From NCBI GenBank assembly GCA_019166125.1, contig JAHTBO010000002.1, forward strand, positions 312,997 through 376,996: 64,000 nucleotides of DNA, written 5' to 3'. Below, in pieces: positions 7,811-37,113 of the stretch. The notes under the pieces are model-generated. The model was not told the origin of the DNA. It saw only the letters and a program-made list of their open reading frames with translations, and did not search any database. Both the position numbers and the translations under genes were made by a program. The stretch comes from Alcaligenaceae bacterium CGII-47 (lineage in GTDB: Bacteria; Pseudomonadota; Gammaproteobacteria; Burkholderiales; Burkholderiaceae_B). The number at the start of each line of letters is the position of its first letter. Within the stretch, counting starts at the first letter, position 1.

Positions 7811-7812
7811 AC

Positions 7813-11356: not shown

Positions 11357-11366
11357 GTCTTTCATC

Positions 11367-17762: not shown

Positions 17763-17790
17763 TGTCGTGACCGATTGAATCAGTCATATA

Positions 17791-18004: not shown

Positions 18005-18397
18005 ATGTCCGAGGCACGCGCTCGTCTTGACGCTTTACCCGCCACCTACCCCCGCCTCTTTCCCAAGGGTCCAGTGCCTTGGGGTTTTGCGGTGAGTGAT
18101 GGCTGGGGCCACCTTATCGAAACCCTGTGTGCTCGTCTAGACACGATTTTGCAGGACGCTCCAGGCGCATCGATAGAGGTTATCCAGGTCAAAGAGAAGT
18201 TCGGTGCCTTGCGTTTTTACTACTCGGTGCATCACGCGGATGACAGCACGGAACAAGCCCTACGTCAGGCGGTCGATTTAGCAGCCAGAGCCAGTGCACA
18301 TATCTGTGAGCGGTGTGGGCGCCCAAGCGAGCTCACGAGTAACGACGGGTGGTATAGCACCGTATGCCCTGCTTGTCGCTCGGCTACCAGCCGATAG
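18005..18397 (+). CDS. Conserved hypothetical protein with C-terminal zinc ribbon
   Basis: 130 residues with GGAG upstream of the ATG. The pattern VPWGFAVSDGWGHLIETLCARL, then VIQVKEKFGALRFYYS, then CERCGRP with a later CPAC belongs to a small family of unknown function found in phages and accessory regions. It precedes the AAA gene by 39 bases in the same direction and may belong with it. Confidence 0.7.
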   Translation: MSEARARLDALPATYPRLFPKGPVPWGFAVSDGWGHLIETLCARLDTILQDAPGASIEVIQVKEKFGALRFYYSVHHADDSTEQALRQAVDLAARASAHICERCGRPSELTSNDGWYSTVCPACRSATSR

Positions 18398-18436
18398 CGT
18401 GAACAACTGATTGAACGGGAAATAGGAGTAAAACCC

Positions 18437-20197: not shown

Positions 20198-20275
20198 GCC
20201 TTGCGCCAGTCCGCCTTTGATAATGGGCTGGCGCAAGCGACGGCCGTGACCGGCAACTAAACACACAATGAGAAC

Positions 20276-21043
20276 ATGATGATTTATTTTCTAGGTGACG
20301 TACATGGGCGCATTGGCCATGTGCTGCCTGCCATCCAGCGAGATGGGGCCCACTCTGCCCACGTTATCTTTCTGGGCGATATCGACCTGTCACGTCCTTT
20401 TGAAGAAGAAATTCGACCATTGCTCGATGTTGGCATCGGGGTGTGGTTCATCCACGGGAACCACGATACTGACCAGTCCTCCAATTGGGATAACTTGCAA
20501 AATTCTATGCATCGCAGCTTAGACGGCCGGATCGTTGAGATTGAGGGGGAGCGGGTCGCCGGCCTGGGTGGCGTCTTCCGTGGTGAGATCTGGTATCCGG
20601 ATCGTGGGGTGGCTACTAATAAGGTGTCAGCGATCCGAAATCACGAAGAATTTCGCATCCAGCACAAAATCAAAACGCCACCTCGACTGCTTAATTCTGC
20701 TCAAAGCACGGGCAACGCCCTCAAGCATTGCTCAAGCATCTTTCCAGACACCTACGACCGATTAGCCAATCAAAAGGCCGATATTCTTGTGACGCATGAA
20801 GCACCGTCCTGCCACAAGCACGGATTCCAGACGCTCGACCTGCTGGCACAGGTCATGGGGGTGAGGACGCTCTTTCACGGCCACCACCACGTCAACCTAG
20901 ACTATCCCGGCTGCGAGCAGTCACTCGGCTTTCAGGCTTATGGTGTCGGCTTACGTGCTATCACCGATATTAACGGACGGTGGATTGTACGGGGTCAGAG
21001 CGAAGTGGACTGGCTCTACGAACAGATGGGCCAGCAGCGTTAA
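20276..21043 (+). CDS. Calcineurin-like metallophosphoesterase
   Basis: 255 residues. Metal ligands are visible in GDVHGR (near residue 9), FLGDIDL, FIHGNHDTD, VTHEAPS and FHGHHHVNLD, the standard five blocks of the family. The substrate cannot be read from sequence; nucleic acid, cyclic nucleotide or phosphoprotein are all possible. It lies 78 bases after the AAA gene and 23 bases before a second phosphoesterase. Confidence 0.85.
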   Translation: MMIYFLGDVHGRIGHVLPAIQRDGAHSAHVIFLGDIDLSRPFEEEIRPLLDVGIGVWFIHGNHDTDQSSNWDNLQNSMHRSLDGRIVEIEGERVAGLGGVFRGEIWYPDRGVATNKVSAIRNHEEFRIQHKIKTPPRLLNSAQSTGNALKHCSSIFPDTYDRLANQKADILVTHEAPSCHKHGFQTLDLLAQVMGVRTLFHGHHHVNLDYPGCEQSLGFQAYGVGLRAITDINGRWIVRGQSEVDWLYEQMGQQR

Positions 21044-21066
21044 TCTGGACAAGAGGACTGAGCAAT

Positions 21067-21930
21067 ATGATCAACCTTCACCAACACCTGCCCACCAATA
21101 GCGTTGGGCGAGATTTCATCGTAGGAGATCTACACGGCTGCCTGGATCTGTTCCAGGCGGAACTGAAGCGCATCGCGTTTAACCCGGATCGTGACCGTAT
21201 CCTTAGCGTGGGCGATCTGGCTGATCGTGGACTGGACTCCATGGGGTGCCTGCGACTGCTGCGCGAGCCGTGGTTTCATGCGGTGCGCGGCAATCATGAG
21301 CAGATGCTGATCAACTTTTCCGATCCAGACATTATTCCGTACGGCACCAATACGGAAGCAGATCTATTTTTTCGCAATGGAGGCGGATGGGTTAGAAATC
21401 TGCCTAAAGACGAAACCGACGAACTTTGGAGCGATCTATTGCGTCGGGTTGTACAACTACCGTATGTCATCACGGTGGGTGAAGGAGGCAATCGGTTTCA
21501 TGTGGCCCATGCAGAGCTGATGACGGGGAATCCTCATGTATCATTTTCTGGCCTTAGGCGTCCAGAGCCCGGCAATCGGCTGCCATCGGATCAGATTCTG
21601 ACCGATGACGAGCTCACAGAAAGCACTTTGGATGCAATGACGACGGCTTTAATCTGGGGGCGCCGCGTTGTGGGCTCTAGCAAGCCGAATCAATCAATGC
21701 CAGTAGATACGCCTGCTGGACGCTTGCTGATCAGTCGAAAACCCTGGCACCCGGGGTTGTCATTGACCTACGTGGGCCATACCCCACTAAACCAGATGCG
21801 GCTGCATGCCTCGCATCTTTTCATCGATCGCGGAGCCTTCATGCGCAAACGTGATTCCTGTCTACTGGTGCTGTGTCATGACAAAGTCCTCACCTGGCTA
21901 CCGGCTAGCTCAGAGAGTCTGATTCATTAG
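21067..21930 (+). CDS. PPP-family serine/threonine protein phosphatase
   Basis: 287 residues from the ATG at 21067; upstream open frame overlaps the previous gene and is ignored. Metal-site blocks GDLHGC, GDLADRGLDS and RGNHEQM are those of bacterial PPP phosphatases such as PrpA/PrpB and lambda phosphatase. A later GHTPLNQ is also present. As part of the cargo next to another phosphoesterase it may remove phosphates added by a host or phage kinase, which is inference. Confidence 0.85.
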   Translation: MINLHQHLPTNSVGRDFIVGDLHGCLDLFQAELKRIAFNPDRDRILSVGDLADRGLDSMGCLRLLREPWFHAVRGNHEQMLINFSDPDIIPYGTNTEADLFFRNGGGWVRNLPKDETDELWSDLLRRVVQLPYVITVGEGGNRFHVAHAELMTGNPHVSFSGLRRPEPGNRLPSDQILTDDELTESTLDAMTTALIWGRRVVGSSKPNQSMPVDTPAGRLLISRKPWHPGLSLTYVGHTPLNQMRLHASHLFIDRGAFMRKRDSCLLVLCHDKVLTWLPASSESLIH

Positions 21931-22181
21931 TTCATATTATAAAAGTGCCTCTATGCCTATTGCACAATAAGGTACAGCGACCGAGGATCCTATCCAATCA
22001 GTATCGAGCCGACCCTTGACGTGTTGCCTTCAAGAAATCTGTGGTGAGTAAAGTCAATCGGGGGATGCCGAAGTGTTACTAAAACATACTTTGTGATTTA
22101 ATCTATGGCATACCCTTCCGCAAATCGGTCGTAGTGTATAGCTCTATGAGCCGCAGGCATTAGTGATAACGGGATAAGTGG

Positions 22182-24899
22182 ATGCTCGTCAATGATCAAA
22201 AGTACCACCCACTGGAGAAAGGCAAAGTGTCCCTGCTACAAGAAATTCAGAACGAATCTAATGGGGCGCAGTTCCGGCGCGCAGACCTGCACATCCACTC
22301 GTTCGGCGAGGGTGGCTCGTACGATGTGACAGACGCAACGATGACTCCCGAAGGCATTGTCGATACGGCAATAGCGGAGCGGCTTGACCTCATCGCTATT
22401 ACCGATCACAACCAGATCGCCAACGTCCGTCAGGCGCTGAAATACGCCGACGACAAACGGCTACTCGTCATCCCCGGCGTGGAACTGTCAACGCCTCAGG
22501 GGCATCTCCTCGTTTATTTCGAGACGGCTGACCAGCTGCAGCGTTTCTTCGGAAAACTGTCCATCTCGGACGACCGGAAGGCCTGCCACGACACCATCCC
22601 CCAGTGCCTTCGCTTTGCCGAAGAGTTCAACGGCTTTGGTATCTGCGCGCACATCGAACTGGAAAGGGGCCTTGAGAGGGCACACCCAAAATTCGACGTG
22701 TTTAAACAGGAGATCTTCAACTGCCCAAACCTCTTGGGGCTGGAGATCGCCAAGGCCTCGAACAGCGCATTGTTTTCTCACGAGGACACGGATACAAATC
22801 GGCGGAATTGCGTTGTAGCCCGATGCAAAGCTCTCGGGCTTGAAGACGGGGTTGACCTGGCAAAGGTGATGTCCTCTGACGCTCACACGCTCAACGCGCT
22901 AGGTCGAAACGCGAGCGGCAACAAGAGGCTGACCCGGATCAAGATGGAGGCCCTAAAGTTCGCATCACTGCGGATCGCACTGATGGATGCAACCGCGCGT
23001 GTGCGCCTGGAAGACCTTATCCCTGCGTCCATACCGAAGTTCGTAGGAATGAAGCTGGAGGGTGGCTTCCTAAAGGACCAGATTGTTCACTTCAGTTCGA
23101 ACCTGACTTGTATCATCGGCGGACGTGGTGCCGGAAAGTCAACCCTGCTGGAGTCACTCCGCGCCGCATCCGGCAACGCCACGGAAAGCACAATCATCGA
23201 TTCCGAAGTCTGGCCGGACGCAATCTCTCTCATCTATGAAGACGAGGCGGGGCAACGGCATACGCTGACGCGTAACAAGCTCTGTGAGGTTGAGAACGGA
23301 AATCCTGAAGGCCCCACGACTGTGGGCATTGAAAGTTACGGGCAAGGGGAGACGGCTGACACGATTCAACATTGCGATACCGACCCATCGATCCTCCTGC
23401 GGTTCTTGGATGGCTTCGTCGATTTCGGCGAGTTGCGCAAGCAAGATGAAGTGCTGCGCGATGCAATCCTCGCCAACCAGAAAGTGATCGAGACACTGCA
23501 GCTCAACATCAACCAGATTGAGCCAACAGTGAGGGCGAAGGGCATTGTGGATACCCAGGTCGCAGCCCTGAAAAAGCAGAATGCCAGCCAAGTCGTCGAA
23601 CTGGAGGAGAAGCTAGCTAAAGAGCGCCGATTCCGCGATGGCCTAAAGAGTGGCCTGGGCGATTTTCTCACCTCACTGACCAACAGCTTGACTGGCGGCG
23701 AACTGCGCAAATTGACAGCCGACGTTGATGGAGACGATCTCGCTGTTGGAAAGGCGGAGTTTGAGGTTGTTAAAGCACTCGTCGATGACCTCGCAGCTGA
23801 GATTGAAACGATATCAGCTCAGCTCAAGGAGAAAGTCGTCGGAACTAGTAGCATGATTGCGGCGCAGCTTCAGACATGGATCGCTCGCGAGAAAGAAACA
23901 CGGGAAACAATCGAAGAGATCCGAAGGGATCTGGAGAAGCAGAACATCAAGCTGAATATGGCGTTCATCCGCAAGGTCACGAAGGATGCTGCCGATCTGC
24001 AAGCGCGACTGATCGAGCTGAAGAAAAGCCAGCCGAAACAGAAGGATGCTTTCAAGGAGCGCAGGCGCCTACTTCAAGAGCGGGTCAGTCTACGCGAGAA
24101 GATATTTAACGCCCGTCAGGCGTTTACGACGACCATGAACAGCCATCTTGCAGCAGCAGTAGTTGACTACAAGGTGAAGATCCAATTTCATGAAGGGTTA
24201 TTCTCACCAGACATGGAAGCGCTGATCAAGACCACCATGAATTGGCGAACCTCACAGGTCCCGCGTGCTGCGCTCATCATGGCTACTGTTTCGCCGACTC
24301 GGCTCCTGGCTGCAGTGGTTGCCAACGATGCCTCGACGCTTGAGCAGTTAAGCGACGCGGAGGGAAACCGAGTGTTCTCCAAGGGCGACGCGGCGGACAT
24401 CATTGGAAAGCTGGGAGAGTGGGAGGCGCGATGCGCTTTAGAGAGTATCGCCTTTGAAGACAAGCCTGAGATCAAAGTGATGAGGACGATCGACAAGGCC
24501 GATGGCACCAAGGCCCATCAGATCCGCGACTTCGCTAAGCTCTCGCTTGGCCAGCAGCAGGCGATCCTTCTGTCGGTTCTGCTGTTCTCGAAGAGCCGCG
24601 TACCACTGATCATCGATCAACCGGAGGACAACCTCGACGGCGAGTTCATTTACAAGACGGTCGTGCGGTCGCTACGCAGCATCAAAGAACACCGGCAGGT
24701 CATCATCGTCACCCACAATCCCAACATCGCCGTCCTCGGAGATGCTGAGCTGATTATTCCGTTGCGCGGCGCTAGTGAAGTATCGGTGGTTAGGGATCGC
24801 GGGTCGATTGACACCAGCCAGACCAAGGACATCGTCTGCACTATTCTAGAAGGCAGCCAAAAGGCATTCAAGCGCCGGCAAGAGGTGTACGGATACTGA
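22182..24899 (+). CDS. PHP-domain SMC-like ATPase, Ppl/TrlF-type defence protein
   Basis: 905 residues. The N-terminal PHP phosphoesterase domain (about 30-300) carries DLHIHS (D35, H37, H39), ITDHNQ and later SSDAH. An ABC/SMC-type ATPase follows: Walker A GGRGAGKST near 313, a coiled-coil section of about 200 residues, then the signature LSLGQQQ, Walker B PLIIDQPEDNLDG and switch VTHNPNIAV. One-gene PHP-ATPases of this architecture were reported as the anti-phage system Ppl and are also named TrlF family. The role is probably ATP-gated nucleic acid cleavage. A long hairpin follows the stop codon. Confidence 0.85.
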   Translation: MLVNDQKYHPLEKGKVSLLQEIQNESNGAQFRRADLHIHSFGEGGSYDVTDATMTPEGIVDTAIAERLDLIAITDHNQIANVRQALKYADDKRLLVIPGVELSTPQGHLLVYFETADQLQRFFGKLSISDDRKACHDTIPQCLRFAEEFNGFGICAHIELERGLERAHPKFDVFKQEIFNCPNLLGLEIAKASNSALFSHEDTDTNRRNCVVARCKALGLEDGVDLAKVMSSDAHTLNALGRNASGNKRLTRIKMEALKFASLRIALMDATARVRLEDLIPASIPKFVGMKLEGGFLKDQIVHFSSNLTCIIGGRGAGKSTLLESLRAASGNATESTIIDSEVWPDAISLIYEDEAGQRHTLTRNKLCEVENGNPEGPTTVGIESYGQGETADTIQHCDTDPSILLRFLDGFVDFGELRKQDEVLRDAILANQKVIETLQLNINQIEPTVRAKGIVDTQVAALKKQNASQVVELEEKLAKERRFRDGLKSGLGDFLTSLTNSLTGGELRKLTADVDGDDLAVGKAEFEVVKALVDDLAAEIETISAQLKEKVVGTSSMIAAQLQTWIAREKETRETIEEIRRDLEKQNIKLNMAFIRKVTKDAADLQARLIELKKSQPKQKDAFKERRRLLQERVSLREKIFNARQAFTTTMNSHLAAAVVDYKVKIQFHEGLFSPDMEALIKTTMNWRTSQVPRAALIMATVSPTRLLAAVVANDASTLEQLSDAEGNRVFSKGDAADIIGKLGEWEARCALESIAFEDKPEIKVMRTIDKADGTKAHQIRDFAKLSLGQQQAILLSVLLFSKSRVPLIIDQPEDNLDGEFIYKTVVRSLRSIKEHRQVIIVTHNPNIAVLGDAELIIPLRGASEVSVVRDRGSIDTSQTKDIVCTILEGSQKAFKRRQEVYGY

Positions 24900-24901
24900 T
24901 G

Positions 24902-24939
24902 GCCGCGATACTCTTCACTGAGCGTCAGAGTATCGCGGC
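24902..24939. repeat. Perfect 12-bp inverted repeat directly after the PHP-ATPase gene
   Basis: GCCGCGATACTC (24902-24913) and GAGTATCGCGGC (24928-24939), loop 14 bases, starting 3 bases after the stop codon. There is no U-tract, so it would be a 3'-end stabiliser or weak terminator. Confidence 0.6.
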
Positions 24940-25427
24940 GCTCCATGGCAATGCTGCCCTCCCCCACAATCTCTCAAAAAAACAGTGGCCATACGACATG
25001 GGCGTCGACATAATTCGCAGAGTCACTGCGTACGAAGCGTGTCAATCACTGAAATTCACCACCCAGTCCGAGGCTGCCGTTCAGCGTCAACATCATGGGC
25101 GACCGCCCCTGGCCGAGGGCAGGGGTTACCTGATGAACTCTAACGCATCTGACAGCACATGCCAGATCAAGTATGAGTTAGCACAGTCAAATATGTCTCG
25201 TTTAATCTTGAGTACCGCGTTCTAGATGCTGGCCTCTTCTCCAGACGTTTGTTAGGCAAGCCCGGCACCATCAACACTGAAATACTATTGCTAATGTCCG
25301 CTTGTCTGCGGAACCTGACAGGCGACAAGCCACGTTCAACAATTGCTTCCGCCGCCAGCAGACGCTCGCATTGGCTATATGCAAGACCATAACAAGGTCG
25401 TTTTCTGCCTGACAAATCTGACTGTCT
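24940..25427. other. Non-coding or decayed stretch
   Basis: No frame here has a ribosome-binding site or recognisable product. It contains one copy of an imperfect 41-base repeat (25151-25191). Confidence 0.5.
25151..25191 (+). repeat. Imperfect 41-bp direct repeat, copy 1
   Basis: Shares about 33 of 41 positions with 34050-34090, including 16 identical bases CACATGCCAGATCAAG. The two copies bracket the block with the DUF4238, NERD-kinase-helicase and winged-helix genes. Confidence 0.55.
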
Positions 25428-25640
25428 CTATCGATACAAATCCGAGGTAACACAGCCTAGAACCCCAGGGCCTACGTACTTCAGCACATCTTCCACAGTT
25501 TCGTCAGTCCTCTGGCACACCGCGAGGATCAGCCGCAACGCGCTCTCCTGATATCCCGGATCTCCCAGGCCGAGATGAGCATGCGCAGCAATACTTTGAA
25601 TGGCGCTATCGTATTCGTCGAGCGCGACGAGAAGGGGCAT
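25428..25640 (-). CDS. Small hypothetical protein
   Basis: 70 residues starting MPLLVALDEYDSAIQSIAAH, with a good AAGGAG 7 bases upstream of the ATG at 25640. Acidic, mainly helical, no recognised domain. It stands alone between stretches without genes, so it may be a remnant of a larger cargo module. Confidence 0.4.
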   Translation of the reverse strand: MPLLVALDEYDSAIQSIAAHAHLGLGDPGYQESALRLILAVCQRTDETVEDVLKYVGPGVLGCVTSDLYR

Positions 25641-26141
25641 GCAAGTCTCCTTACGGATTGGACGTGCCCCAGTATGCCAAAGCGGTATGCGCATAGGCCA
25701 TGCTTGAGAGACAATTTTGTCAGCCCGAACGAAGCTGACTAAAGGGCCAGCGCTTTGGTCGTGACAAGCATCGAGTCAGGCAGATTGCTGCCGCCGCAAT
25801 TTATGCTTCCAGCGATAGGCAAACTTACAGCCAGCGCCTCGACTGAGATTCACACCAATCAATCATCAGATCTAAATTGCAGCGACTCAGACTTGATCTA
25901 ACAGACACTGTCAGAACCGTCCGGTTGAATCCGAGACCCAAAGCGGTCGCTCGAGTTTTGATGGCGGATGATCTTCGCAGAAGGCAGACGTCGGGCAGCG
26001 CCTGCCAGGCCTTGATAGCCGAGTAGAAGGTCTTGGTCCCGCGCCGCCATATTTGTCGCGCTGTAGACTCCACACGCTTTGACTCATTGAATCGAATGCT
26101 GGGTCATTCCAAATCGCGAAGCGAGCTATATGTAAAGAGAT
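25641..26141. other. Stretch without a supported gene
   Basis: 500 bases. Frames here (such as the minus-strand one at 25825-26073) lack a ribosome-binding site and resemble no protein. The convergent end of the DUF4238 gene marks the right border. Confidence 0.5.
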
Positions 26142-27029
26142 CTAAAGCGTGGACCGAAGTCCAATACCGATGCCACGACCGGCAGGCGTGTGTTGCAGGC
26201 GCCGTTCAAGCAGTTTCCGGTGCTCGAAGTTGGCCCCCCAGACATACACACTGGCTTGCTCGTCCATGCCCCTGTTCATTTGCTTCACGAGATGAGAGTC
26301 ATCCATTGAATCGATCCACTGCTCCATTCGTGCAGACCTCGAAGCAAAGAAGGCGACATCGGGAGCGAGGGGGAGATAGACCAAGTCGAGCTCCGTCTCT
26401 GGGCCGAACAGCGTTAGCGGCCGGTCACCAATCAGGAGCTTCTCATTGGCTCTCATAATCCTGCGGACGCTCCATTTCGCCTCAAAGAACAGCTTGTTAT
26501 ACGAGGAGGTCTGGATTAGCTCCGGCAGGGCGTAGGTGCCAAAATCCAATAGCGATTGGTCGCGTCGCAGGTAGAGGTTCAGCAATTCCTTCGACGAATC
26601 CGTCAGTCCAGCCGTGTTCTCTACACCTTCTGGGAACTGCGAGCGAATCGCATCGATGCCACTCTCGCGCACGTGTTCGATTGCTTTCGGGCCGCGAAAC
26701 ACGAGAGAGACCAGGAACAGAGTCCACGCGTACTTTTGTTCCTCGGTCATGTCTCGGAGTCTGCGGGTAAGAAGCTCTTTATGCACTATCGCTGCCGGTT
26801 CGTCGATATGCTTACTCATGAACTTCGGTTCGATTTCCCGGTTCGGCTGAGAACTCAACCTATCCATCGAATACAGATGCCGTTCCTTGGCCACCGATTT
26901 AGCCTTGTAGCGCTTCTCGGTCAATTGGCCTCGGACCCAACGCATTTGCGACAGCTTCTCGTCTTCGCCGCTGTGCCAGTGATAAAGCAGAAATTTGGGA
27001 ATGTAGTGGTGCTGGTTATGGGTGTCCAT
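26142..27029 (-). CDS. DUF4238 family protein
   Basis: 295 residues from the ATG at 27029; the frame is open further upstream, but the family begins with the HYIPKFLLYHW motif that follows MDTHNQH. DUF4238 proteins are found singly in defence and accessory regions of many bacteria; the conserved N-terminal His-Tyr-Ile-Pro and a later region around NEKLLIGDRPLTLF suggest an enzyme, but no reaction is established to my knowledge. It is transcribed away from the large helicase gene, from the same 540-base gap. Confidence 0.75.
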   Translation of the reverse strand: MDTHNQHHYIPKFLLYHWHSGEDEKLSQMRWVRGQLTEKRYKAKSVAKERHLYSMDRLSSQPNREIEPKFMSKHIDEPAAIVHKELLTRRLRDMTEEQKYAWTLFLVSLVFRGPKAIEHVRESGIDAIRSQFPEGVENTAGLTDSSKELLNLYLRRDQSLLDFGTYALPELIQTSSYNKLFFEAKWSVRRIMRANEKLLIGDRPLTLFGPETELDLVYLPLAPDVAFFASRSARMEQWIDSMDDSHLVKQMNRGMDEQASVYVWGANFEHRKLLERRLQHTPAGRGIGIGLRSTL

Positions 27030-27568
27030 ACGATGCTCTTGCTGTTGCCTTCTTTGACGAGGGACAAAGGCTTGGTTGTTAAATAGAGAGTGCAAACTAC
27101 TGCGTGGCTTATAAAGCCAGAAAGCCGGTCGGCTGAATTCTATCCATCTATGGTCACTTCCAGTGTTGAACAGATCGTCCTTGCCAATTGGCAATGCCCG
27201 CTTCTGGCCGTTTTGAGTCTATCACCAACGTCTCAATCCGACCCAAAGTGGAAGTTCAACTAGAATTAACAGTTAATAAAGGTGCAGGACCACCGATCCA
27301 GAACCTGTTGCAAAGCAGATACCGAGGTGCAAGGCTCTGTCAGGCGAGTAGTTTGTTGCAAAATGCTGTTGCCTCTTTCCAGAGGCGTCGCTCGGACTTG
27401 GTGTCCCAGTGGGACTCATCCTGACTCACCGTGCTAGCGCCCGTTGTCGTGAGTTTGCTCGAATAGCGCTCTGTTGAGGTGAGTGATTCAAGTAGTTGCG
27501 TGAGATCGCTTCGCGCGGCGATGAGTGTGAAGATCATGGCCGTGCTCGGCACCCTAAGGAATTGAAGC
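27030..27568. other. Divergent promoter region between DUF4238 gene and helicase operon
   Basis: 539 bases. Promoters for both directions must lie here; I see no clean consensus. A minus-strand frame (27340-27537, 65 codons, ending RRLWKEATAFCNKLLA) has protein-like composition but no ribosome-binding site, so it is only noted. Confidence 0.45.
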
Positions 27569-30500
27569 GTGGAAATCAAACTGGCAAAGAAATCGGGGGT
27601 TCCCAAGGCTGAAGTACTGGCTCACCAGACCATTCAAAAAGAGTTCAGCAGTTCACCTTTCAGCAAGCAGTGGCGCGGTTACGCTGCATTCGCACTGGCC
27701 AGGAGCGGCCGAGGAAGCGGTGATGACGACTTGGATCTGGTGCTCGTCACGCACACAGGCATCACGTTGGTCGAGCTGAAGAACTGGCATGGAAAGTTGC
27801 TGGAGTCTGACGGTCAGAAGTGGTATCTAGATGGTGAAGACCGTGGCTCGTCACCAGTCCACGTTGTACGCAGGAAGGTACCAAAGCTGGTGAGCGCCAT
27901 GACACAGAAGCTGGGCAAAGATCTCACGCCTTTTATCAGTTCCTATGTCGTGATGCATGGCCGGATCGGAGAACTGCGGCTTCCAGAGAACGAGAAGAGC
28001 TCGGTGATCGACATGACTGAGTTCCTCTCGTTCCGGTTCGCGGCGAGCTATCGGCAGTACATGGGTGGGCGCCATTACTTCAACCCGCTAGACCATCTGG
28101 CTAAGTACGACGCTTTCTTTCTTGGAACTACGTTTCGCCCCAAGGTCTACTACATCGAGGGCTTTCGGCCCGATGCGAACCCAATTTTTGAGCATCCTGG
28201 CAAGCTCTACACTGAGTATCGCGCCGCGGCCAAAGATGACCCGACGGCACTGGCCTTGCTGCGTCAGTGGGATTTCGACAAGCTCGGTCTCAAGCTTATC
28301 GGTGAGACCGACCGGGCTTTCATCGGACTGCGTGAGCAAAAGGTATTCCAATACGTGGAAGACCGAAACGCGGAGCTGTCCCTCGGCCTACTTCGCCCGA
28401 TTGCTTGGAAGGGCCCAAAAGACGTCACGATAGATTATGCCGAGCTGTTTTCCCTGCCGGGTCGCGTAACGCGAATGGCAGAGTTCACGCACAGCACGCT
28501 GCCAAAACTCGATCGAAATGAACGGCTACTTCTGGCCAAGGCCGTGATCTCTCGTTTTGCCGACCTACATGACATTCGGGTAGCGCACCGCGACATCGGA
28601 GAGCACAGCCTGTGGTTGGACCGCCCTTCCCGGGTGATCATGTCGGGTTTTCCGGCGGCCTACTACCCCGATCCCGAGCTCAAGACCGTGGGCACGTTGC
28701 GCGAACGCGTTCAGGTCGAACAAGCGCGCTTGCCCGAGGATGTAAAAGCAAACACGCAGGCGACACCGTACCGGCGTGACGTATTCATGCTTGGGGCCAT
28801 CGTGCACGTGATCCTGCTGGGTGCGCAGGCAACCAAGTTCGATGGCATTTACCAATGGCGGGTTCCTGCTGACGATCCCTTTGGCGGCATGCTCAACGAT
28901 TTTTTTGCTCAGGCCTTGAATGCTGACCCGACGAAGCGATTCGAGGACGCGCGGAAGATGCTGGGGGCCTTCAACGCCGTGACTGACGCGACTGACGCAA
29001 AAAGTCACGGCCTGATCGATCTGGCCGCCTTCGACGCGTTCAGGGCATCGACCAAGGAGCGCGACTACGACGAGACTGAACACTTGTCGGAGGACGAAGA
29101 CCACTCGTTCTTTATCAGCGGAACGGGTGCCGAGGCTAATCTGGTGAAAGTCTGGTATGGAGTAGAGCCCGATCTGCGTCGGCCCGATCAATCACTGCGG
29201 CTGTTGTCCTTCCTCGAGCGGGCCAGGACACTCAAGGGTTGCGAGTTGCGCGGATTGCCACGCATCGTTGATTTCGGCCTCAGCCGCCGCAGCCTGATTA
29301 TCGTAATGCCTTGGGTGCCGGGGGTGACACTGCCGGACTGGTTGCAATCGAACCCCGCAACTGCGCGGCGGCTTGCCCTCGCCACGTCTCTGGTCGCGAC
29401 GCTGCAGCGCCTGCACGCCATCGAGCTGGCTCATGGTGATGTGCATCCGGGAAACGTGGTCGTGAGCGCCTCCGGCGAGCCTTTGCTCATCGATCTGCTG
29501 GACTTTCGCCGCGACGCAGCGGACGTATACACAACAGCCTATCTGCCCGAAAACTACAAGTCCCTGACACCGTTCGAGCGTGATCGTTACAGCATCGCCG
29601 CCGTGCTGGTCGACGTGCTGCAAACACGGCGCGACGCGCCCATGCAGGGGATGCTGCCATATCCGCGCGTGTATGAGGAACTGGCCCACCTGCTTTCCTC
29701 CGAAACGCTATCGACCCTGCTGCCGCTGGAGCGTGCGTTGCTCGCTGCGGCAAAGCCCGAAGAAGATCTGCAGCAGAGCTTCACAGTCACGGTCAAAAAC
29801 TTGGCCTATGATGGGATTCCCGCCGGAGAGTTGCGCAGCGACAACGGGGTGTTCCATATCGATGTCAGGCTGGACCGGCAGTCAGCGCAGGCATTGCGCA
29901 TCTGGGTGACCGGGATTGGTCGTCAGGTTTCCTTCGTCTGGAACGTGGATCAGGAACACGCAGAAAACGTGCGCGCATCGAGCATTCCGCAGAGTCAGTT
30001 GCTACGTTCGCAGATGATGCGTGATGCGGGCATTCGGATGCAGTTGGTGTTGCACGATGGTCCTGCGTCTGACGTTGATGCTCTCGCTCGCTACCTAATT
30101 GGCCATAAGGTGATCGCACGCAAGATCGCGGGTTTCACCTCCGGGGCAGACGGCAAGCGAAGTGCTGCGATGCCAGAACAGTCTAACGCTGGAGAGGAGG
30201 GCTTGATTCAAGGCGAGGTCGGCCTTGATCCGACCCAAGACATGCCTGCGCGCGAACTGTGGAGGGCGCTTATCGATGTGGAGGAGGAAGCATTTACCAC
30301 CGTGACCATAGCGGGGAACCATCGCAAGAACCCATCTCGGCCTTCTCAGGCACTGATTCCCTTCCACATCGACGGCAGCGACTTCGAGTTTGGCGTCCTG
30401 GACAAGGTGGTCGTCGAGAGCCTGTTGCACGATGGGACGTGGCGTGCTTGCGGCGCACTCGACTTGAGAGAGACGAGCTTCGGCAACTTTCCCGAACTGG

Positions 30501-32482
30501 CTGTCGACCACCTTTACATGAAAGCCAACCTGCGCATTGGCAGTAAGCTGAGGCTGGTCAGCACGGCGGAAAAGGGCTCCTACAGCCGTCGGCGCGCGGC
30601 GGTCGAGCGCATCCTTGACGACAAGGCGGTGGTACCCGGTCTGATTGACTACTTCGATGGCGCCCCGACTGTGTCCTCAACACCCGCGACCTACCCAGTT
30701 CCTGCTGAAGCTGAACTCGATCGGTACTCGGAAGGGGACAAGAAACTCAACCCGAGCCAGAAGGAAGCGTTTCACCGTGTTTTGGGTCATGGCCCTATCA
30801 GCCTTCTGCAGGGACCGCCAGGTACCGGGAAGACCTGGTTCATCGCCGCGTTGCTGCACTATCTGATGGCGCATGAGCACGTGCGCAGGGTGTTGCTGGT
30901 GAGTCAAGCTCATGAGGCGGTGAATAACGCCCTGGATAAGGCCCAGGAACTTTGCAGTAGCAAGGGCCTAGTTTTCGACGCCGTGCGCATCGGACCGGAC
31001 TCGATGGTCTCGGAGGACATTCGGCATCTGCATTCCACGTCGATCGAGCAGGCTTACCGGGATCGTTTCAAGGCCGAGCTCGCCGAGCGCATCATACGTT
31101 TGGCCGCCTCGCTTGGACTGGCGACAGCGTTTGCGCAGGACATGCTAGCACTGCACCAGCAGCTTGGCACACTGCATCAGCGCTTGCGCCATTTGCAGCA
31201 GCGCAGTGGTCAAGAGAACAAGGAGACACTGGCCTCGCTGGATGCGCGCGCACGTGCTGTTTCGGAGACCTTCTTCGATATCGCCGCCGACGTGTATGGC
31301 ATCTCCGAAGCTGCAGATCCGACACAAATGCTGGAGCAGCTTGAATCGAGCATTGTTGAACGCCATGAGGTGCGCTCGGCGGATGCGGTGGAGCGACTGA
31401 GAAGCCTGATTCGTCTGTCTGAAGACTGGGTCGCCGCGTTGGGATCGCCTGATGCGAACTTCGCCGAGTTTTTAGCCAAATCGCGCACTGTGGTCGCCGG
31501 GACCTTGGTGGGCATCGGGTCGCGCGGCGCTGGCATCACGCAGAACTTGTTCGACTGGGTCATCATTGACGAGGCTGGACGTGCTTCCTCGAGCGAGCTG
31601 GCCGTCGCGATGCAGGCCGGCCACCGCATCTTGTTAGTAGGCGACCACAAGCAGTTGCCGCCCATGTTCTCCCAGCAGGTGCGCGATGCAGTCGTACAGC
31701 AGTTCGGCTGCGGCGAAGACGGCGCGATCTTTCAAAGCGACTTCGAACGTGTATTCAACTCCGAATATGGGCGCCAAGTCGGCGTGACACTGCTCAGCCA
31801 GTACCGCATGGCGCCCAACATCGGCGATCTGGTCTCCAGCTGCTTCTACGACGAGCGCCTAGAAACGGGCCGCGGTGCGCCGCCCCCATACTATGGGCAC
31901 TTGCCAGGTGAGCTGAGCCAGCAGGTGACCTGGGTGGACATGTCGACACTTGGAAGCCGCAGCCATCATCAGCAATCTGAAGACGGATCGGACACATGGA
32001 ACAAGACAGAGGCCAAAGTGGTCATGCAGATCTTGCGTCAGATCGTCGAATCCGACGAATTCATGAGTGAGTTGCTGCCGACCTTGAAGCCGCAGGAGCC
32101 CGCGATTGGAATCATCTGTATGTACGACAAGCAGCGCGAGGTCATCGACCAGATGAAATCTGAAGCGTCCTGGCTCGGCGATCACCGGCATCTGGTGAAG
32201 ATCGATACAGTGGACAGCTACCAAGGCAAGGAAAACCGGATAGTCATCCTGTCCACGGTGCGCAATCATCCGAGCGGCCGGGTTGGATTCATGTGGCGCC
32301 CCAATCGAATTAATGTGGGCATCTCGCGTGCGATGGAGCGGTTAATCGTTGTTGGGGCGTGCAAGATGTGGCGGGAAAAAAATTCCGATCAGCCGCTTGG
32401 CCGAGTGCTGAGCAAGATTGAATCGATGGCCGTCGCAGGCCGAGCTGCCGTGATTGCGGCCAACCAGTTCATGGAGGCCTAG
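27569..32482 (+). CDS. NERD nuclease-like / double kinase / UPF1-like helicase fusion
   Basis: 1637 residues from a GTG with AAGGA 8 bases upstream. Domains in order: NERD (about 12-200) with the nuclease-like residues D56 and E69-L-K71 (DLDLVLV...VELKNW); a first protein-kinase-like fold with HRD at 340-342 (VAHRDIGEHSLWLD) but no DFG; a second kinase fold with HGDVHPGN (H622, D624, N629) and LLIDLLDF in the DFG position, looking intact; and an SF1 helicase with Walker A GPPGTGKT (K1088), Walker B VIIDEAGRA (D1334), motif III GDHKQLPPM, motif V DTVDSYQGKE and motif VI NVGISRAMERL, as in UPF1/DNA2-like enzymes. The stop codon abuts the start of the next gene. NERD-helicase and kinase fusions occur in defence islands. 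Role in phage defence is inference. Confidence 0.85.
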   Translation: MEIKLAKKSGVPKAEVLAHQTIQKEFSSSPFSKQWRGYAAFALARSGRGSGDDDLDLVLVTHTGITLVELKNWHGKLLESDGQKWYLDGEDRGSSPVHVVRRKVPKLVSAMTQKLGKDLTPFISSYVVMHGRIGELRLPENEKSSVIDMTEFLSFRFAASYRQYMGGRHYFNPLDHLAKYDAFFLGTTFRPKVYYIEGFRPDANPIFEHPGKLYTEYRAAAKDDPTALALLRQWDFDKLGLKLIGETDRAFIGLREQKVFQYVEDRNAELSLGLLRPIAWKGPKDVTIDYAELFSLPGRVTRMAEFTHSTLPKLDRNERLLLAKAVISRFADLHDIRVAHRDIGEHSLWLDRPSRVIMSGFPAAYYPDPELKTVGTLRERVQVEQARLPEDVKANTQATPYRRDVFMLGAIVHVILLGAQATKFDGIYQWRVPADDPFGGMLNDFFAQALNADPTKRFEDARKMLGAFNAVTDATDAKSHGLIDLAAFDAFRASTKERDYDETEHLSEDEDHSFFISGTGAEANLVKVWYGVEPDLRRPDQSLRLLSFLERARTLKGCELRGLPRIVDFGLSRRSLIIVMPWVPGVTLPDWLQSNPATARRLALATSLVATLQRLHAIELAHGDVHPGNVVVSASGEPLLIDLLDFRRDAADVYTTAYLPENYKSLTPFERDRYSIAAVLVDVLQTRRDAPMQGMLPYPRVYEELAHLLSSETLSTLLPLERALLAAAKPEEDLQQSFTVTVKNLAYDGIPAGELRSDNGVFHIDVRLDRQSAQALRIWVTGIGRQVSFVWNVDQEHAENVRASSIPQSQLLRSQMMRDAGIRMQLVLHDGPASDVDALARYLIGHKVIARKIAGFTSGADGKRSAAMPEQSNAGEEGLIQGEVGLDPTQDMPARELWRALIDVEEEAFTTVTIAGNHRKNPSRPSQALIPFHIDGSDFEFGVLDKVVVESLLHDGTWRACGALDLRETSFGNFPELAVDHLYMKANLRIGSKLRLVSTAEKGSYSRRRAAVERILDDKAVVPGLIDYFDGAPTVSSTPATYPVPAEAELDRYSEGDKKLNPSQKEAFHRVLGHGPISLLQGPPGTGKTWFIAALLHYLMAHEHVRRVLLVSQAHEAVNNALDKAQELCSSKGLVFDAVRIGPDSMVSEDIRHLHSTSIEQAYRDRFKAELAERIIRLAASLGLATAFAQDMLALHQQLGTLHQRLRHLQQRSGQENKETLASLDARARAVSETFFDIAADVYGISEAADPTQMLEQLESSIVERHEVRSADAVERLRSLIRLSEDWVAALGSPDANFAEFLAKSRTVVAGTLVGIGSRGAGITQNLFDWVIIDEAGRASSSELAVAMQAGHRILLVGDHKQLPPMFSQQVRDAVVQQFGCGEDGAIFQSDFERVFNSEYGRQVGVTLLSQYRMAPNIGDLVSSCFYDERLETGRGAPPPYYGHLPGELSQQVTWVDMSTLGSRSHHQQSEDGSDTWNKTEAKVVMQILRQIVESDEFMSELLPTLKPQEPAIGIICMYDKQREVIDQMKSEASWLGDHRHLVKIDTVDSYQGKENRIVILSTVRNHPSGRVGFMWRPNRINVGISRAMERLIVVGACKMWREKNSDQPLGRVLSKIESMAVAGRAAVIAANQFMEA

Positions 32483-33979
32483 ATGGCTGGTTCTTTCGAA
32501 TTCAACCGGGTGACTTTTGGCCTGCCGGTCGAGACTTTTCGAGTGGATGCCTACATCGCGCTTGATGAGCGGCTGCCGGTTGTCACAGAGTTCGTGATGC
32601 GCCTGCTCAAGGTTTGTGAGCGGGTCCCGCTAGCCACAATGCGAGACTATTTTGGGTTCAACGATATTGAAGCGCGTGCGGTCATTGAGTCGTTGACCAA
32701 ACAAGGCCTGTTGGAGATGAGCGAGGATGAAGTCTTTCTAAGTTCCTTTGCACTTGAAAAATTCGAGGAAGCCGGTGGAGATCATCCTCGTTTCAGCAAG
32801 GTTGAACTCAAGAGCGATACCGTGACATTTGATCTGGTCTCGTTCACGCCCCTGCGATTCACTCCGGCCGATATGGCGTCCGATAACATCATCAAGCTGG
32901 ATGCGGCCGAAGACGCGCTGGGCAATAGCGTTGAGCGCGCGAGGCTGGCCTACCGTCGACACTATCCTGAGATCGCATCCATGCGCGCGGATCTGCGCGA
33001 ACGATCCTACGGAGTCTATTCAGTCGAAAGTGTGGAGAGCAGGCGTCGGAACTATGTTCCCGTACCAGTTTCCTTCGAACTGGACCAATATGGTCACGTC
33101 GAGCGCCGCATGGACGAGGCATTTGAGCGGATCGCACCACCTGAGTTGCAGCACTTCGTGAGCGAACAGGTCACAGCGGCAATCCCCCGCACGCTGTCAT
33201 TGCCGGCAGCCGGCTTTGAGGCGTTCATTGAGGCCTTCGATCTGAGGCTGTTAAACCAGTACCTCGCGGGAAAGAAGTTTGACCTGCTGCGATATCTTGC
33301 AGAGGTCCAAGTGGGAAGATCAGTGCGTTACGCAGAAGGCGTAGAGCCGATGTTCGGAAATCTGTACCTCCAGGGAAATAGAGAGCGCATTCTTGAGCGG
33401 CTCAATGACCGGCGTCTTGGCAAGCGTCGTCACGGACCGCTGTTGACATCTCTCGCATGGCTGGTGCCCGACTATCCCCTCTGGGGACGGGGCGATGCTT
33501 TTGCGCAATCAGTCAGCGCACTATCCTCTATGCTGCAAACGGGCGTGCACGGTAACGACCTGTACCTGTTTGCAAATGCAGATCTGGATGAAGAGTCCGT
33601 TGTGACCAATAACTTGCGTGTCCCATATCTGCATGAACTCCATTTCGTCCGACCGCAGGCGACAGGGGGGCGCCTGATGGCCGGACGTGTGGAAATCCTG
33701 CTGTATCCCACCGCATTCATGGTTGCCATGTTCCATCTGCCCGTGCCTGGAAACGAGGGGTTGTGGGTTCCCATCGGCTTCATTTCCTCGCTCCATGGTC
33801 ACCTGGACACGGCACACAAAATGTTGTGCCAGGCGGCGAGCGGTGCGCGCTATGGGCGCCGTGCCCGGTTCAACCACAAAGTTCAGTTTGCATCACCGTC
33901 GGGGTTCGATGATGCGTGTACCTTTCTCAACTACTGCCCCTTGGGGAACGGCAGCCTGAGGCTTTCGGACAGATCTTAG
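32483..33979 (+). CDS. Winged-helix protein paired with the NERD-kinase-helicase
   Basis: 498 residues, starting on the base after the helicase stop codon, so translation is coupled. Residues about 30-90 look like a winged helix (VTEFVMRLLKVCERVPLATM, then YFGFNDIEARAVIESLTKQG). The rest, rich in charged residues and with a hydrophobic RVEILLYPTAFMVAMFHLPV strand region near 410-430, is unrecognised. It may be a substrate-recognition or regulatory partner of the helicase. Confidence 0.7.
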   Translation: MAGSFEFNRVTFGLPVETFRVDAYIALDERLPVVTEFVMRLLKVCERVPLATMRDYFGFNDIEARAVIESLTKQGLLEMSEDEVFLSSFALEKFEEAGGDHPRFSKVELKSDTVTFDLVSFTPLRFTPADMASDNIIKLDAAEDALGNSVERARLAYRRHYPEIASMRADLRERSYGVYSVESVESRRRNYVPVPVSFELDQYGHVERRMDEAFERIAPPELQHFVSEQVTAAIPRTLSLPAAGFEAFIEAFDLRLLNQYLAGKKFDLLRYLAEVQVGRSVRYAEGVEPMFGNLYLQGNRERILERLNDRRLGKRRHGPLLTSLAWLVPDYPLWGRGDAFAQSVSALSSMLQTGVHGNDLYLFANADLDEESVVTNNLRVPYLHELHFVRPQATGGRLMAGRVEILLYPTAFMVAMFHLPVPGNEGLWVPIGFISSLHGHLDTAHKMLCQAASGARYGRRARFNHKVQFASPSGFDDACTFLNYCPLGNGSLRLSDRS

Positions 33980-34049
33980 ATGGCCGCCGATGGAAAGAGG
34001 ACGGTGTCGGGAGGCTATGTGAACTTCCGCTTGTGACCGACAACAGCGG

Positions 34050-34090
34050 GACAACACATGCCAGATCAAGCCTGAGCTAATACATCCAAA
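34050..34090 (+). repeat. Imperfect 41-bp direct repeat, copy 2
   Basis: Same orientation as 25151-25191, about 80 percent identical, located 70 bases after the winged-helix gene. It marks the right border of the block. Confidence 0.55.
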
Positions 34091-34177
34091 AGCTGCAAAA
34101 ACCGCCAACTTCGCTCATTGGAAAATACAGCCCCCCATCAACTGACATGCACGTGACGCGTCCTCGGTGATGTCATA

Positions 34178-35977
34178 TTACGTAATAACCCCAACCTTCT
34201 TCAATGCGCTCCTGACGGTCACTTCACAGGGGTGTGCCTCACCATTGGCAGGAACGTGTTTAAACGCAAAGACGGATTGCTCCCATCCAAGAGCATTGCT
34301 TACACGAAGAGCCACCCCCGTCTTACGGCGGATCTGCTCCAAGAGATCGCGAATCAGCACGCCAAGATCATCCTGACGCCTCAATGCAAAAACCAGCGCA
34401 CCCAAGGGCTGCTCGCCAGGCTCGACCTCACCGTCCTTGCATTTTTTTAACACAGGTCGGCGTTGCATCTCGACCAGACACACCGATGTCTCCCCTGCCT
34501 GAATCACGATCACCAGCACGCCACGAGGTATTTTTGCCTTCCGATCATAGTAGACCCACCTCCTCACCTCATTGCTAACCTCAGTATCATCAGGCCCAAA
34601 AGGTTCCAACGAGATCAATTTGAACTCTGGGTCGTGGCTAACGCCATCTTCGAACGTGAACCACCCCACCGATTGGACTATGTCCGGTAGACGCTCCTGC
34701 AACTTGCATAAGGCATTCCACATGTCTCGCAGCACGCCCTGAGACTCCAGCACGACTGGGGAATGGATCGATCCGAATCCTACACCTTTACCACTCCCAA
34801 ATGGCTCGCCAGTTGAAACCACCCGAATTTCTTGATCACTGCGGACATGTTTTACAAGTCCGCGTTCGACGGCCCGTTTCCTATCGATGACCTCTCTCGG
34901 ATCACCGAGTATCTCCATTTCGTCAGCCTCAATGTCGATAGCCGATGCACCATGATCGGGTGCTTCATTCGAGGTCAGATCGATAATCTCGGGTAGCCGA
35001 CGTAGCTGCCGAACTGGATAGTTTGACTCAAGATCACCCGCCCCTTCTTGCCGCCCAAGACCATCAGATATTTCACGATTACGGATGACCGTTTTACCGT
35101 TCGGTTGACTCTCTCCAACGATACGTAGGGCAAGAAACGTCTGATCGGCATCAAGCCAGACACCCTCGGCGCTGAGTTGAGCTGGCCCACTAAACCAAGG
35201 CTTAGCCTCCAGGAAAGCATATGATTCCGCCCCGTCAGGCGCCTTAAACGCCACCTCAGTTTGAGCATATATATCCTTTGCTACGCTACGTGTGTAGTCG
35301 CAGTACTGGACATGAGCAAGGAACACCGCATCATCTTTATGCATCCGCTTACCAAGGTTCACGGGCCACGTTCCAGGCTCGGCGGACTCTTCAATCGGCC
35401 TCAGCAAACGGCCCCTAGCCTCATACCATGGATATGTGGCCAACACACGCCGGGACTCCGCCGAGCGGCCGTAGCAGCGAGAAAAATACTCTATAGAAGG
35501 CACCAGCAGACGCTTACCGTCCGGATGATGAAAGTCAAGTAGGGCATTGCGGTCTTTAGAGTGCTGGAGGGGATAGCCTTCTAAGGAGAACAGGCTCGAC
35601 CCTTCTCGTGTAATTATTTTTGCCAGTGAAGTAAAGCTCCACCCATCTTCAGAAAAATCCAGCATCTTGAATTCTGCCTTAGGGTAAGTGACATACTCGT
35701 TGCAAACACCCTTTTTCCACACCGAACCAATCCGCAATAAGCCAAGCTGAGTCAGTGCTATCTTCTGACGGATCCAACCAGCGGGCTCATTTCCACCGGC
35801 AATAAGGCGACGGAAGAATACCTCAACCAGCGGCACGGATTCATCAGCTCGGTTTTTCACCATCGGGCCATACCACCAGACGACCAGACGTCCCTTATCG
35901 TTCTTTAAGAATGCATTTTCAATGCGAACTACCTTCGCACGTCGTAATGAAAGCTCCACAACACCACACCTCGTCAT
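34178..35977 (-). CDS. Probable TnsE-like transposition protein at the far transposon end
   Basis: 599 residues (Tn7 TnsE has 538). It starts only 62 bases from the transposon terminus and reads inward. I see two stretches that fit TnsE by pattern: a central LLVPSIEYFSRCYGRSAES aligned with the IPQLELARS region of Tn7 TnsE, and a C-terminal domain of the form helix, EDG...FKLISL, RRWVYYDR...PRGVLVIV, CLVEMQRRP, later IRRKTGVALRVSN and FKHVPANGE. The family call rests on these by-eye resemblances. TnsE directs Tn7 to replicating DNA and conjugal plasmids through the sliding clamp. Its placement away from tnsABC is unusual. Confidence 0.5.
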   Translation of the reverse strand: MTRCGVVELSLRRAKVVRIENAFLKNDKGRLVVWWYGPMVKNRADESVPLVEVFFRRLIAGGNEPAGWIRQKIALTQLGLLRIGSVWKKGVCNEYVTYPKAEFKMLDFSEDGWSFTSLAKIITREGSSLFSLEGYPLQHSKDRNALLDFHHPDGKRLLVPSIEYFSRCYGRSAESRRVLATYPWYEARGRLLRPIEESAEPGTWPVNLGKRMHKDDAVFLAHVQYCDYTRSVAKDIYAQTEVAFKAPDGAESYAFLEAKPWFSGPAQLSAEGVWLDADQTFLALRIVGESQPNGKTVIRNREISDGLGRQEGAGDLESNYPVRQLRRLPEIIDLTSNEAPDHGASAIDIEADEMEILGDPREVIDRKRAVERGLVKHVRSDQEIRVVSTGEPFGSGKGVGFGSIHSPVVLESQGVLRDMWNALCKLQERLPDIVQSVGWFTFEDGVSHDPEFKLISLEPFGPDDTEVSNEVRRWVYYDRKAKIPRGVLVIVIQAGETSVCLVEMQRRPVLKKCKDGEVEPGEQPLGALVFALRRQDDLGVLIRDLLEQIRRKTGVALRVSNALGWEQSVFAFKHVPANGEAHPCEVTVRSALKKVGVIT

Positions 35978-35993
35978 CCGGATCGTATGATAT

Positions 35994-36039
35994 TGTCGCA
36001 GCTATTTCAGAATTGTCGCAACAATTACGGAAAGTCACA
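35994..36039. repeat. Transposon end next to the TnsE-like gene
   Basis: Reading inward from 36039 the end begins TGTGACTTTCC and has two TGCGACA cores (36020-36014 and 36000-35994 on the minus strand) exactly 20 bases apart, closer than at the tnsA end. This asymmetry between ends is typical of Tn7 elements. Confidence 0.65.
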
Positions 36040-36044
36040 CCCCG
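36040..36044. repeat. Target-site duplication, copy next to the TnsE-like gene
   Basis: CCCCG, identical to 3102-3106, directly after the terminal ACA. Confidence 0.9.
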
Positions 36045-36913
36045 CCACCCACCAGCGCTGCCATAGACGCCGAATGATGGGGGGCACGAAATGGCGGATG
36101 GCTGTCCACCTGACAATCAGCACCCCGCAGCCCCGAGATGGCCGCAACCTCGAGCGCCTGCATGTTATCGAGCGGCGGCAAAATACCTGGAAGGCGGTGC
36201 GCCAGCATACTCTTACCCACACCGGGCGGGCCAGACATCAGCATGCTATGGCGTCCTGCTGCTGCAATTTCTAGCACACGCCGTGCCGCAGCCTGCCCTT
36301 GGACCTCGGACAAACACGGTACGACCGTCGAACGATATCGAAACCCACCTTCGGTCACAGCGCAGAGCGTCTGTTGACCACGTAAATGCTCAACAATCTG
36401 AGAGAGTGTCTCGGCCCCCAGCACACACAAGCCAGGCACACATGCCGCCAGCGCTGCAGTCGCGTGCGGCACAATGAGCCGCACCGGCCTATCACGGCGC
36501 GACGCACCGAGCGCGATCGCCAGAACAGCATCAAGGGCCCCGAGCATACCAGTGAGCGATAGCTCACCGGCCAGGACATAATCACGCATGTCCGGCACCA
36601 CCGCACCCATCGCTTCGTCACTCGCAATCTGCCCTGAGGCCAAGAGCACCCCTACCGCGATTGGCAGATCAAAGCGCCCAGACTCCTTGGGCAAGTCGGC
36701 TGGTGCCAGATTGACGATGATCCGCCCAGCCGGAAATTCATAGCCACTATTGATCAGCGCTGAGCGCACGCGCTCACGGCTCTCGCGCACGCCTGCATCA
36801 GGCAGGCCCACCACATGGAATGCGGGCAAACCACTGCCCACATGTACCTCAACAAATACCGGTAGCGCCTCGAGGCCGCGCACGGCACAGCTCATCACAA
36901 TTGCCAGGGACAT
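36040..36913 (-). pseudogene. comM: comM (yifB), 5' fragment, separated by the transposon
   Basis: Starts at the ATG at 36913 (MSLAIVMSCAVRGLEALPVF) with GGAG 7 bases upstream. It encodes the Lon-protease-like N-terminal domain and the AAA start with Walker A SGPPGVGKSMLAHRLPG, ending PHHSASMAALVGGG. After that the transposon end supplies Val and a TGA at 36035-36037, giving a truncated protein of about 292 residues with Walker A but no Walker B. Confidence 0.95.
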
Positions 36914-37077
36914 GTACTCTCCTGTCCGACGTGCCGGATCAGAATTGATCCAGCCTCGCCTTATCTGACAGTGTGCCAACCTTACTGTGCCCCCTTCACA
37001 TCGGAGTGAGCATTCTGTCATAGCCAAGCGCATTTTTTGCCGAGCGGTATGGCCCGAACGATGCGCCTTGGGCTCTA

Positions 37078-37113
37078 ACAAAAGCGGGGCGTATGAATAC
37101 ACCCCGCTTTTGT
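37078..37113 (-). terminator. Terminator of the lipoprotein gene
   Basis: ACAAAAGCGGGG and CCCCGCTTTTGT around a 12-base loop; symmetric, so it also gives a T-rich tail on the minus strand. It lies 25 bases beyond the stop codon at 37138. Confidence 0.75.

Follow-up and report, generated by a model that had tools for sequence, protein, structure and literature searches.

Two abutting genes at positions 27569–33979 of a 64,000-nucleotide stretch from Alcaligenaceae bacterium CGII-47 (the whole stretch is referred to as the window) raise the question of whether they represent a new defence system or a known one. The initial annotation, made from the letters alone, had described a large protein joining a NERD nuclease-like domain, two kinase folds and a helicase, followed by a winged-helix partner, and had presented the pair as a candidate undescribed system without a named counterpart. 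Our comparisons identify the two genes, with high probability on the basis of homology, as mkoA and mkoB of Mokosh type I, an established anti-phage system. The locus is a further copy of a known system, which removes a false lead, and its analysis points to where the active nuclease of Mokosh should be sought.

Assignment of the gene pair

The PADLOC model for MkoA (PDLC03921) covers residues 1–1634 of the 1637-residue protein with 1675.9 bits, and that for MkoB (PDLC03923) spans residues 4–460 of the 498-residue protein with 359 bits. The likeness to Mokosh type I extends over most of both proteins and includes the gene order, the abutting or overlapping genes and the NERD domain (PF08378), which a 2023 review lists for Mokosh type I, citing Millman et al. 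2022 (PMC10952713). A match to an already named system, which the initial annotation had itself set against its claim of novelty, was returned by the PADLOC run; the claim therefore fails, though the observation behind it was sound. That the pair should still be an undescribed system is hardly credible. Neither protein exceeds the cut-off of any NCBIfam model, and the plasmid relatives are annotated merely as ‘AAA domain-containing protein’ or ‘hypothetical protein’, as would be expected of such a system, but the PADLOC models for MkoA and MkoB match most of both proteins in the expected order, and these matches rule it out.

MkoA of Mokosh type I is defined by a kinase together with a COG1112/UPF1-like helicase. 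Both parts were recognized in the 1637-residue protein by the PADLOC model, by Pfam domains and by their conservation in a 14-way alignment. An MkoB beside MkoA was likewise found, as indicated by the PDLC03923 match, the abutting genes and the related loci described below. Mokosh type II consists of a single protein, MkoC, in which helicase and PLD are joined. It was rejected as an identity for the pair: the MkoC model reached just 112.2 bits in three stretches (best 1402–1614), the genes are separate, and there was no Pfam PLD match. Homology thus demonstrates the identity of both genes, their domain order, the conservation of catalytic residues and the conserved adjacency, and at this level a defence function of the pair is supported.

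The coupling of the two genes was followed in related loci. Directly 3′ of mkoA, each of the 19 related loci (L023–L039, L055 and L056), the window aside, has a gene matching the MkoB profile. Thirteen of these loci are contained in the MkoB profile, while L028, L029, L035, L036, L055 and L056 are outside it. The first seven in number, L023–L029, were found via MkoB and give no test of co-occurrence from the MkoA side; the fair test is provided by the loci fetched by MkoA alone (L030–L039, L055 and L056), all 12 of which have MkoB. The initial annotation had proposed such a count. In 14 aligned pairs the spacing ranges from an overlap of 8 nucleotides to a gap of 1 nucleotide. Two loci carry damaged mkoA genes: in L028 only a helicase part is left, and in L029 an IS3 element lies inside the gene. 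Not every locus is independent of the others; L033 and L039 are closely related. Among plasmids, MkoB occurs in 11 records, and each of them shows sequence matching MkoA just upstream of it (eight by opening the records, two of these as L030 and L031, and three from neighbouring coordinates). MkoA was matched in 171 plasmid records (59 at 80% coverage). Thirty of them were listed and 14 of these opened, ten through MkoA and four through MkoB; for L027 and L028, MkoB was the only route.

The mkoA/mkoB pair of the window's branch is uncommon. Of 369 genomes of the class, the window's own was the only one with an MkoA match at E ≤ 1e-100, and at E ≤ 1e-50 four of 300 genomes of the order matched: the window's own, G600 and G657 with NERD-type pairs, and G651 with a pair of the other branch described below (both searches scored at most two candidates per genome). 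These strict limits were used because the models are unspecific in controls. At E 0.001, 13 of the 14 control genomes were matched by the family model for MkoA, and the window's own genome gave four weak extra matches; of the MkoB models, PDLC03922 matches 198 and PDLC03923 17 of the 369 class genomes, and the PDLC03923 matches in the 16 genomes besides the window's own are weak (E 5.5e-7 to 9.2e-4) and lie in the N-terminal third. No MkoB match was found in the phage collection, and three scans of viral contigs with single MkoB proteins revealed no relative. A viral-contig scan with the MkoA alignment gave two distant helicases (scoring 66 and 75 bits against the MkoA profile) among the 600 stretches examined, more stretches being in existence.

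Domain architecture of MkoA

Both open reading frames (ORFs) are as the initial annotation had described them. The mkoA gene (27569..32482, plus strand) starts with GTG, preceded by AAGGA (by eye), and its TAG stop codon is followed, with zero bases between, by the ATG of mkoB (32483..33979, plus strand, 498 residues), which is preceded by GGAGG (by eye). According to PADLOC, Pfam and PDB comparisons, MkoA consists of a NERD domain, a degenerate kinase (kinase 1), an atypical kinase (kinase 2) and a UPF1-like SF1 helicase. Conservation was judged from an alignment of 14 MkoA proteins: that of the window, that of Caballeronia (L023) and those of 12 plasmid loci. It omits L028 (truncated), L029 (interrupted by IS3), L035 (unannotated record) and L036 (mkoA in two ORFs); these four, together with L055 and L056, which joined after the alignment, are included in the 19-locus counts. 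Identity to the window MkoA is 83% for Caballeronia and 29–37% for the remaining proteins.

The NERD domain (residues 34–129; 27668..27955, plus strand) was detected by Pfam with 39.2 bits (cut-off 22.1), and its D56, E69 and K71 are unchanged in 14 of 14 proteins. The D-ExK residues are present in the window and in all 18 related loci that retain the N-terminal part of MkoA. The core of kinase 1 (residues ~299–410, limits by eye; 28463..28798, plus strand) retains H340-R341-D342 across the 14 aligned proteins, but the presumed DFG site (359–361, by eye) is without Asp in every one of them. No Pfam match to this region is among the matches listed (25 of 27).

The core of kinase 2 (residues ~526–672, limits by eye; 29144..29584, plus strand) gave two Pfam matches above cut-off at residues 565–648, Kdo (26.0 bits, cut-off 21.3) and ABC1 (23.5 bits, cut-off 22.9); Pkinase stayed below cut-off in the same stretch (23.9 versus 31.7 bits). 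H622-G623-D624, N629, D642 and D645 are constant in all 14 proteins and K527 is nearly so. Kinase 2 thus resembles kinases of the Kdo/ABC1/Bud32 sort more closely than canonical Ser/Thr kinases, as judged from these matches and the PDB match given below. As far as motifs can tell, the distinction between a degenerate kinase 1 and a catalytically complete-looking kinase 2 holds throughout the 14 proteins. The helicase (residues 1059–1598; 30743..32362, plus strand) matches AAA_11 (PF13086, 127.3 bits) and AAA_12 (PF13087, 138.6 bits), and its GPPGTGKT (1082–1089, including K1088), D1334-E1335 and QYRM are constant in 14 of 14. In a PDB sequence search with MkoA, the helicases NAM7 and UPF1 and their kin were the best matches, and a weak match to a Bud32-type kinase was also obtained.

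The domain search that the initial annotation had suggested therefore bears out its reading of this protein: Pfam confirms the NERD domain, the kinase-like region and the helicase, the D-ExK residues are in place, the first kinase lacks the Asp of its presumed DFG, and the second looks active, though atypical. K71, D624 and K1088, which it had singled out for point changes, are constant in the alignment.

The N-terminal arrangement is not restricted to Mokosh. PMC12839542 describes a NERD domain followed first by an inactive and then by an active kinase for PglW (BREX type 2) and for a subset of DndF (DndFGH), and proposes the enzymatic domains of PglW as backup effectors of a suicidal response. 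The C-termini differ: where MkoA has its SF1 helicase, PglW has a winged helix-turn-helix and an inactive STAND module, and DndF a P-loop nucleotide kinase (PMC12839542). From domain order and model matches, the only grounds of comparison, MkoA would be a further setting of the NERD/kinase/kinase cassette, with a helicase behind it.

Could MkoA then be a PglW-related protein of BREX type 2 and not a Mokosh protein? The identical published order (PMC12839542) and a weak PADLOC match to PglW (74.3 bits, best stretch 35–148, the NERD region) are in line with this idea. We give it a negligible chance: the MkoA model reaches 1675.9 bits against 51.1 bits for the NCBIfam PglW model (cut-off 990), and the UPF1-like helicase occupies the place of the C-terminal half of PglW. 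On these two scores the PglW/BREX type 2 identity was rejected. None of BrxC, PglX and PglZ is among the PADLOC matches listed for nine window proteins (at most 25 for each); a search of the whole genome for BREX was not part of this comparison.

The NCBIfam kinase model for MAD6 (MADS) aligns with residues 51–492 of MkoA, from NERD to kinase 1, with 96.3 bits, far under the family cut-off of 460. This match suggests another relative of the cassette; MAD6 is not known to have a helicase. With PglW and DndF as described in PMC12839542 and MkoA here, the cassette precedes at least three different back ends, so that a role worked out in one of them would inform the others.

MkoB and the two branches of Mokosh type I

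Which domain acts as the nuclease is the question that the second protein raises. With reference to Millman et al. 2022, the 2023 review (PMC10952713) assigns a PLD-like domain to Mokosh type I as well as type II. In the window's branch, Pfam detected no PLD in any of 15 MkoB proteins, and the HxKx4D motif is missing from all 20 (19 related loci and the window). The initial annotation had taken MkoB for a winged-helix protein of 498 residues. An abutting ORF of this length is indeed present; the N-terminal winged-helix signal is weak, as the Pfam model HTH_27 reached 15.1 bits (cut-off 22.2), and similarly weak HTH-type matches were seen in some relatives.

Mokosh type I has another branch, represented by 24 plasmid records, nine of which were opened, and by locus L057 of genome G651. 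L057, whose contig starts inside mkoA, matches PDLC03920 (680 bits) and PDLC03922 (189.6 bits); PADLOC was run on L057 alone, and the other loci, among them L058 (Allocoleopsis) and L062 (Streptomyces), were assigned by similarity. The two branches share a kinase and a UPF1-like helicase in MkoA and a downstream MkoB whose N-terminal half is homologous (hhalign probability 95.5%). They differ in the remainder. Each of the five MkoA proteins scanned from the other branch has one canonical Ser/Thr kinase besides its helicase, and NERD was found in none of the five. HxKx4D is present in six of ten MkoB proteins of that branch (nine plasmid loci and L057) and missing in four, all of them alphaproteobacterial. 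The C-terminal halves of MkoB are not detectably homologous between the branches (profile comparison probability ≤ 2.9%).

The four alphaproteobacterial loci (L060, L061, L063 and L064), whose MkoB lacks the PLD motif, contain a third, overlapping gene annotated as a PP2C phosphatase. One of the four genes was scanned and matches PP2C. These loci are a candidate kinase–phosphatase version of Mokosh type I, to judge from their gene content.

The conserved D-ExK residues of MkoA and the missing PLD motif of MkoB suggest that the nuclease of the window's branch is NERD and not a PLD domain of MkoB. Tentatively, and short of calling it probable, we propose that Mokosh type I comprises two branches with exchanged effectors. 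The window's branch would have gained a cassette of NERD, inactive kinase and active kinase resembling that of PglW and DndF, and would have no PLD active site; the nuclease would have moved from MkoB to MkoA, MkoB keeping only recognition or scaffold functions. The other branch would have a single kinase–helicase MkoA and a PLD nuclease in part of its MkoB proteins. No statement of such an alternation between NERD and PLD is among the literature matches listed, and other papers may have it.

Several findings weigh against this proposal or against the Mokosh assignment on which it builds. The PLD-like domain published for Mokosh type I, in the review referred to above (PMC10952713), is undetected in MkoB here, as in all 20 loci of the branch. 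We kept the pair under Mokosh type I because of the PDLC03923 match and because the motif is likewise missing from four of the ten MkoB proteins in the other branch; PLD then marks only part of Mokosh type I, not the whole system. Scattered HxK triplets lacking the remainder of the motif occur in six of 14 MkoB proteins of the window's branch. Finally, L060 and L063, the alphaproteobacterial loci whose MkoA was tested, have neither NERD in MkoA nor a PLD motif in MkoB; loss of the PLD motif is therefore not coupled to NERD, and a nuclease need not be the sole effector of Mokosh.

MkoB of the window's branch might still be a nuclease, by way of a heavily altered PLD-like fold in its C-terminal part. 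H418 is nearly constant there and E404, P430 and G432 are constant, and a profile comparison aligned this part weakly with the PLD region in MkoB of the other branch (P-value 0.015). We consider this improbable: besides the absence of HxKx4D from 20 of 20 proteins and of a Pfam PLD match from 15 of 15, the C-terminal profile comparisons give probabilities of 0.1 to 2.9%. Structure models, computed for the full length from a single sequence and for residues 276–463 from two sequences, had a mean predicted local distance difference test score (pLDDT) of 33.8 in both cases, too low to be of use. Among solved structures, none was matched by the MkoB sequence, and the MkoB alignment gave weak matches with E 0.044 or worse.

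With NERD as the nuclease, the following mechanism can be envisaged. The UPF1-like helicase in MkoA, together with MkoB, would bind foreign or aberrant nucleic acid and move along it; the degenerate kinase 1 and the atypical kinase 2 may serve as sensor or switch; the NERD domain, a PD-(D/E)XK nuclease, would then cleave the nucleic acid, either that of the phage or, abortively, that of the host. We favour this scheme because conservation is strict for the residues of NERD, of kinase 2 and of the helicase and no other Pfam nuclease domain was found in either protein, and we hold it, taken as a whole, to be possible, with a chance somewhat below even. Phosphorylation or AMPylation may gate the helicase-nuclease, as the initial annotation had supposed.

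The same conservation can be read differently. The active kinase might itself be the effector, halting infection by phosphorylating host or phage proteins, with NERD as an accessory. The catalytic residues of kinase 2 (H622-G623-D624, N629, D642 and D645) are constant in 14 of 14 proteins, kinase and helicase are common to MkoA of both branches whereas NERD is missing in five of five from the other branch, and the gene annotated as a PP2C phosphatase accompanies all four alphaproteobacterial loci. An effector kinase nevertheless seems rather unlikely to us, as the NERD residues are conserved to an equal degree and kinase 2 fails to reach the Pkinase cut-off and is similar to kinases of the Kdo/ABC1 type. 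PMC11291487 says, citing another paper, that Mokosh degrades viral transcripts. A 2026 review (PMC12926258) still gives the mechanism as unknown. Among the literature matches listed, none has a title that concerns how Mokosh works or what its structure is.

The carrier transposon and its cargo

The mkoA and mkoB genes are cargo of a complete-looking Tn7/Tn6022-like element of 32,933 bp inserted in comM/yifB. The exact ends of the element were found (3107..36039; TGTCA.../...TCACA, with GCGAC sites close to either end, and a 5-bp target duplication, CCCCG), and the location of the pair in transposon cargo, as initially annotated, is thus confirmed. The interrupted gene is represented by a C-terminal fragment on the left (2452..3106, minus strand; Pfam Mg_chelatase and Mg_chelatase_C) and an N-terminal fragment on the right (36040..37102, minus strand; TIGR00368 YifB, 270.6 bits). 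Tn6022 carries genes of the TnsA/TnsB/TniB/TniQ type, and the window element has the same types. Its transposition genes (3216..9243, plus strand; Pfam) encode TnsA-like, TnsB-like (rve/Mu-C), TnsC/TniB and TniQ proteins and a 491-residue protein; in the TnsB-like protein, Mu-transpos_C is above and rve below the Pfam cut-off. Together with the TGT...ACA ends and the 5-bp duplication in comM, these genes identify the element as Tn7/Tn6022-like. The insertion in comM agrees with the target of Tn6022-like elements given in PMC10293859, and defence cargo in Tn7-like elements is described in PMC8649781. A difference concerns the 491-residue protein (7768–9243), encoded 3′ of TniQ, where the comM selector TnsF might be expected: it has no Pfam, NCBIfam or PHROGs match, so that no TnsF assignment was made.

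The initial annotation had placed the pair between other defence modules, and the adjacent cargo does include candidate defence genes according to PADLOC, NCBIfam and Pfam. Three adjoining genes on the minus strand (11517–16848) encode a DUF2357/PDDEXK_7 protein, an AAA protein (PDC-M26A, 150.5 bits; McrB, 24.6 bits versus a cut-off of 637) and a Dcm-type cytosine methylase; from its composition, this trio is possibly a modification-linked restriction system. The 586-residue protein at 18437–20197 contains a Lon-like AAA domain (99.5 bits with the endopeptidase La model, whose cut-off is 608) and is adjoined by two calcineurin-like phosphoesterases. The last cargo gene before the right end of the transposon encodes a 599-residue protein (34178–35977) with no PADLOC, NCBIfam, Pfam or PHROGs match.

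A TrlF-family AAA-like ATPase is located within ~5 kb of Mokosh in three loci: in the window (22182–24899), in L025 (14576–17260) and in L026 (1–46). The three TrlF–Mokosh loci are those of the window, Polaromonas and Pseudomonas aeruginosa. It is possible that this ATPase is a partner of Mokosh or a sign of shared islands.

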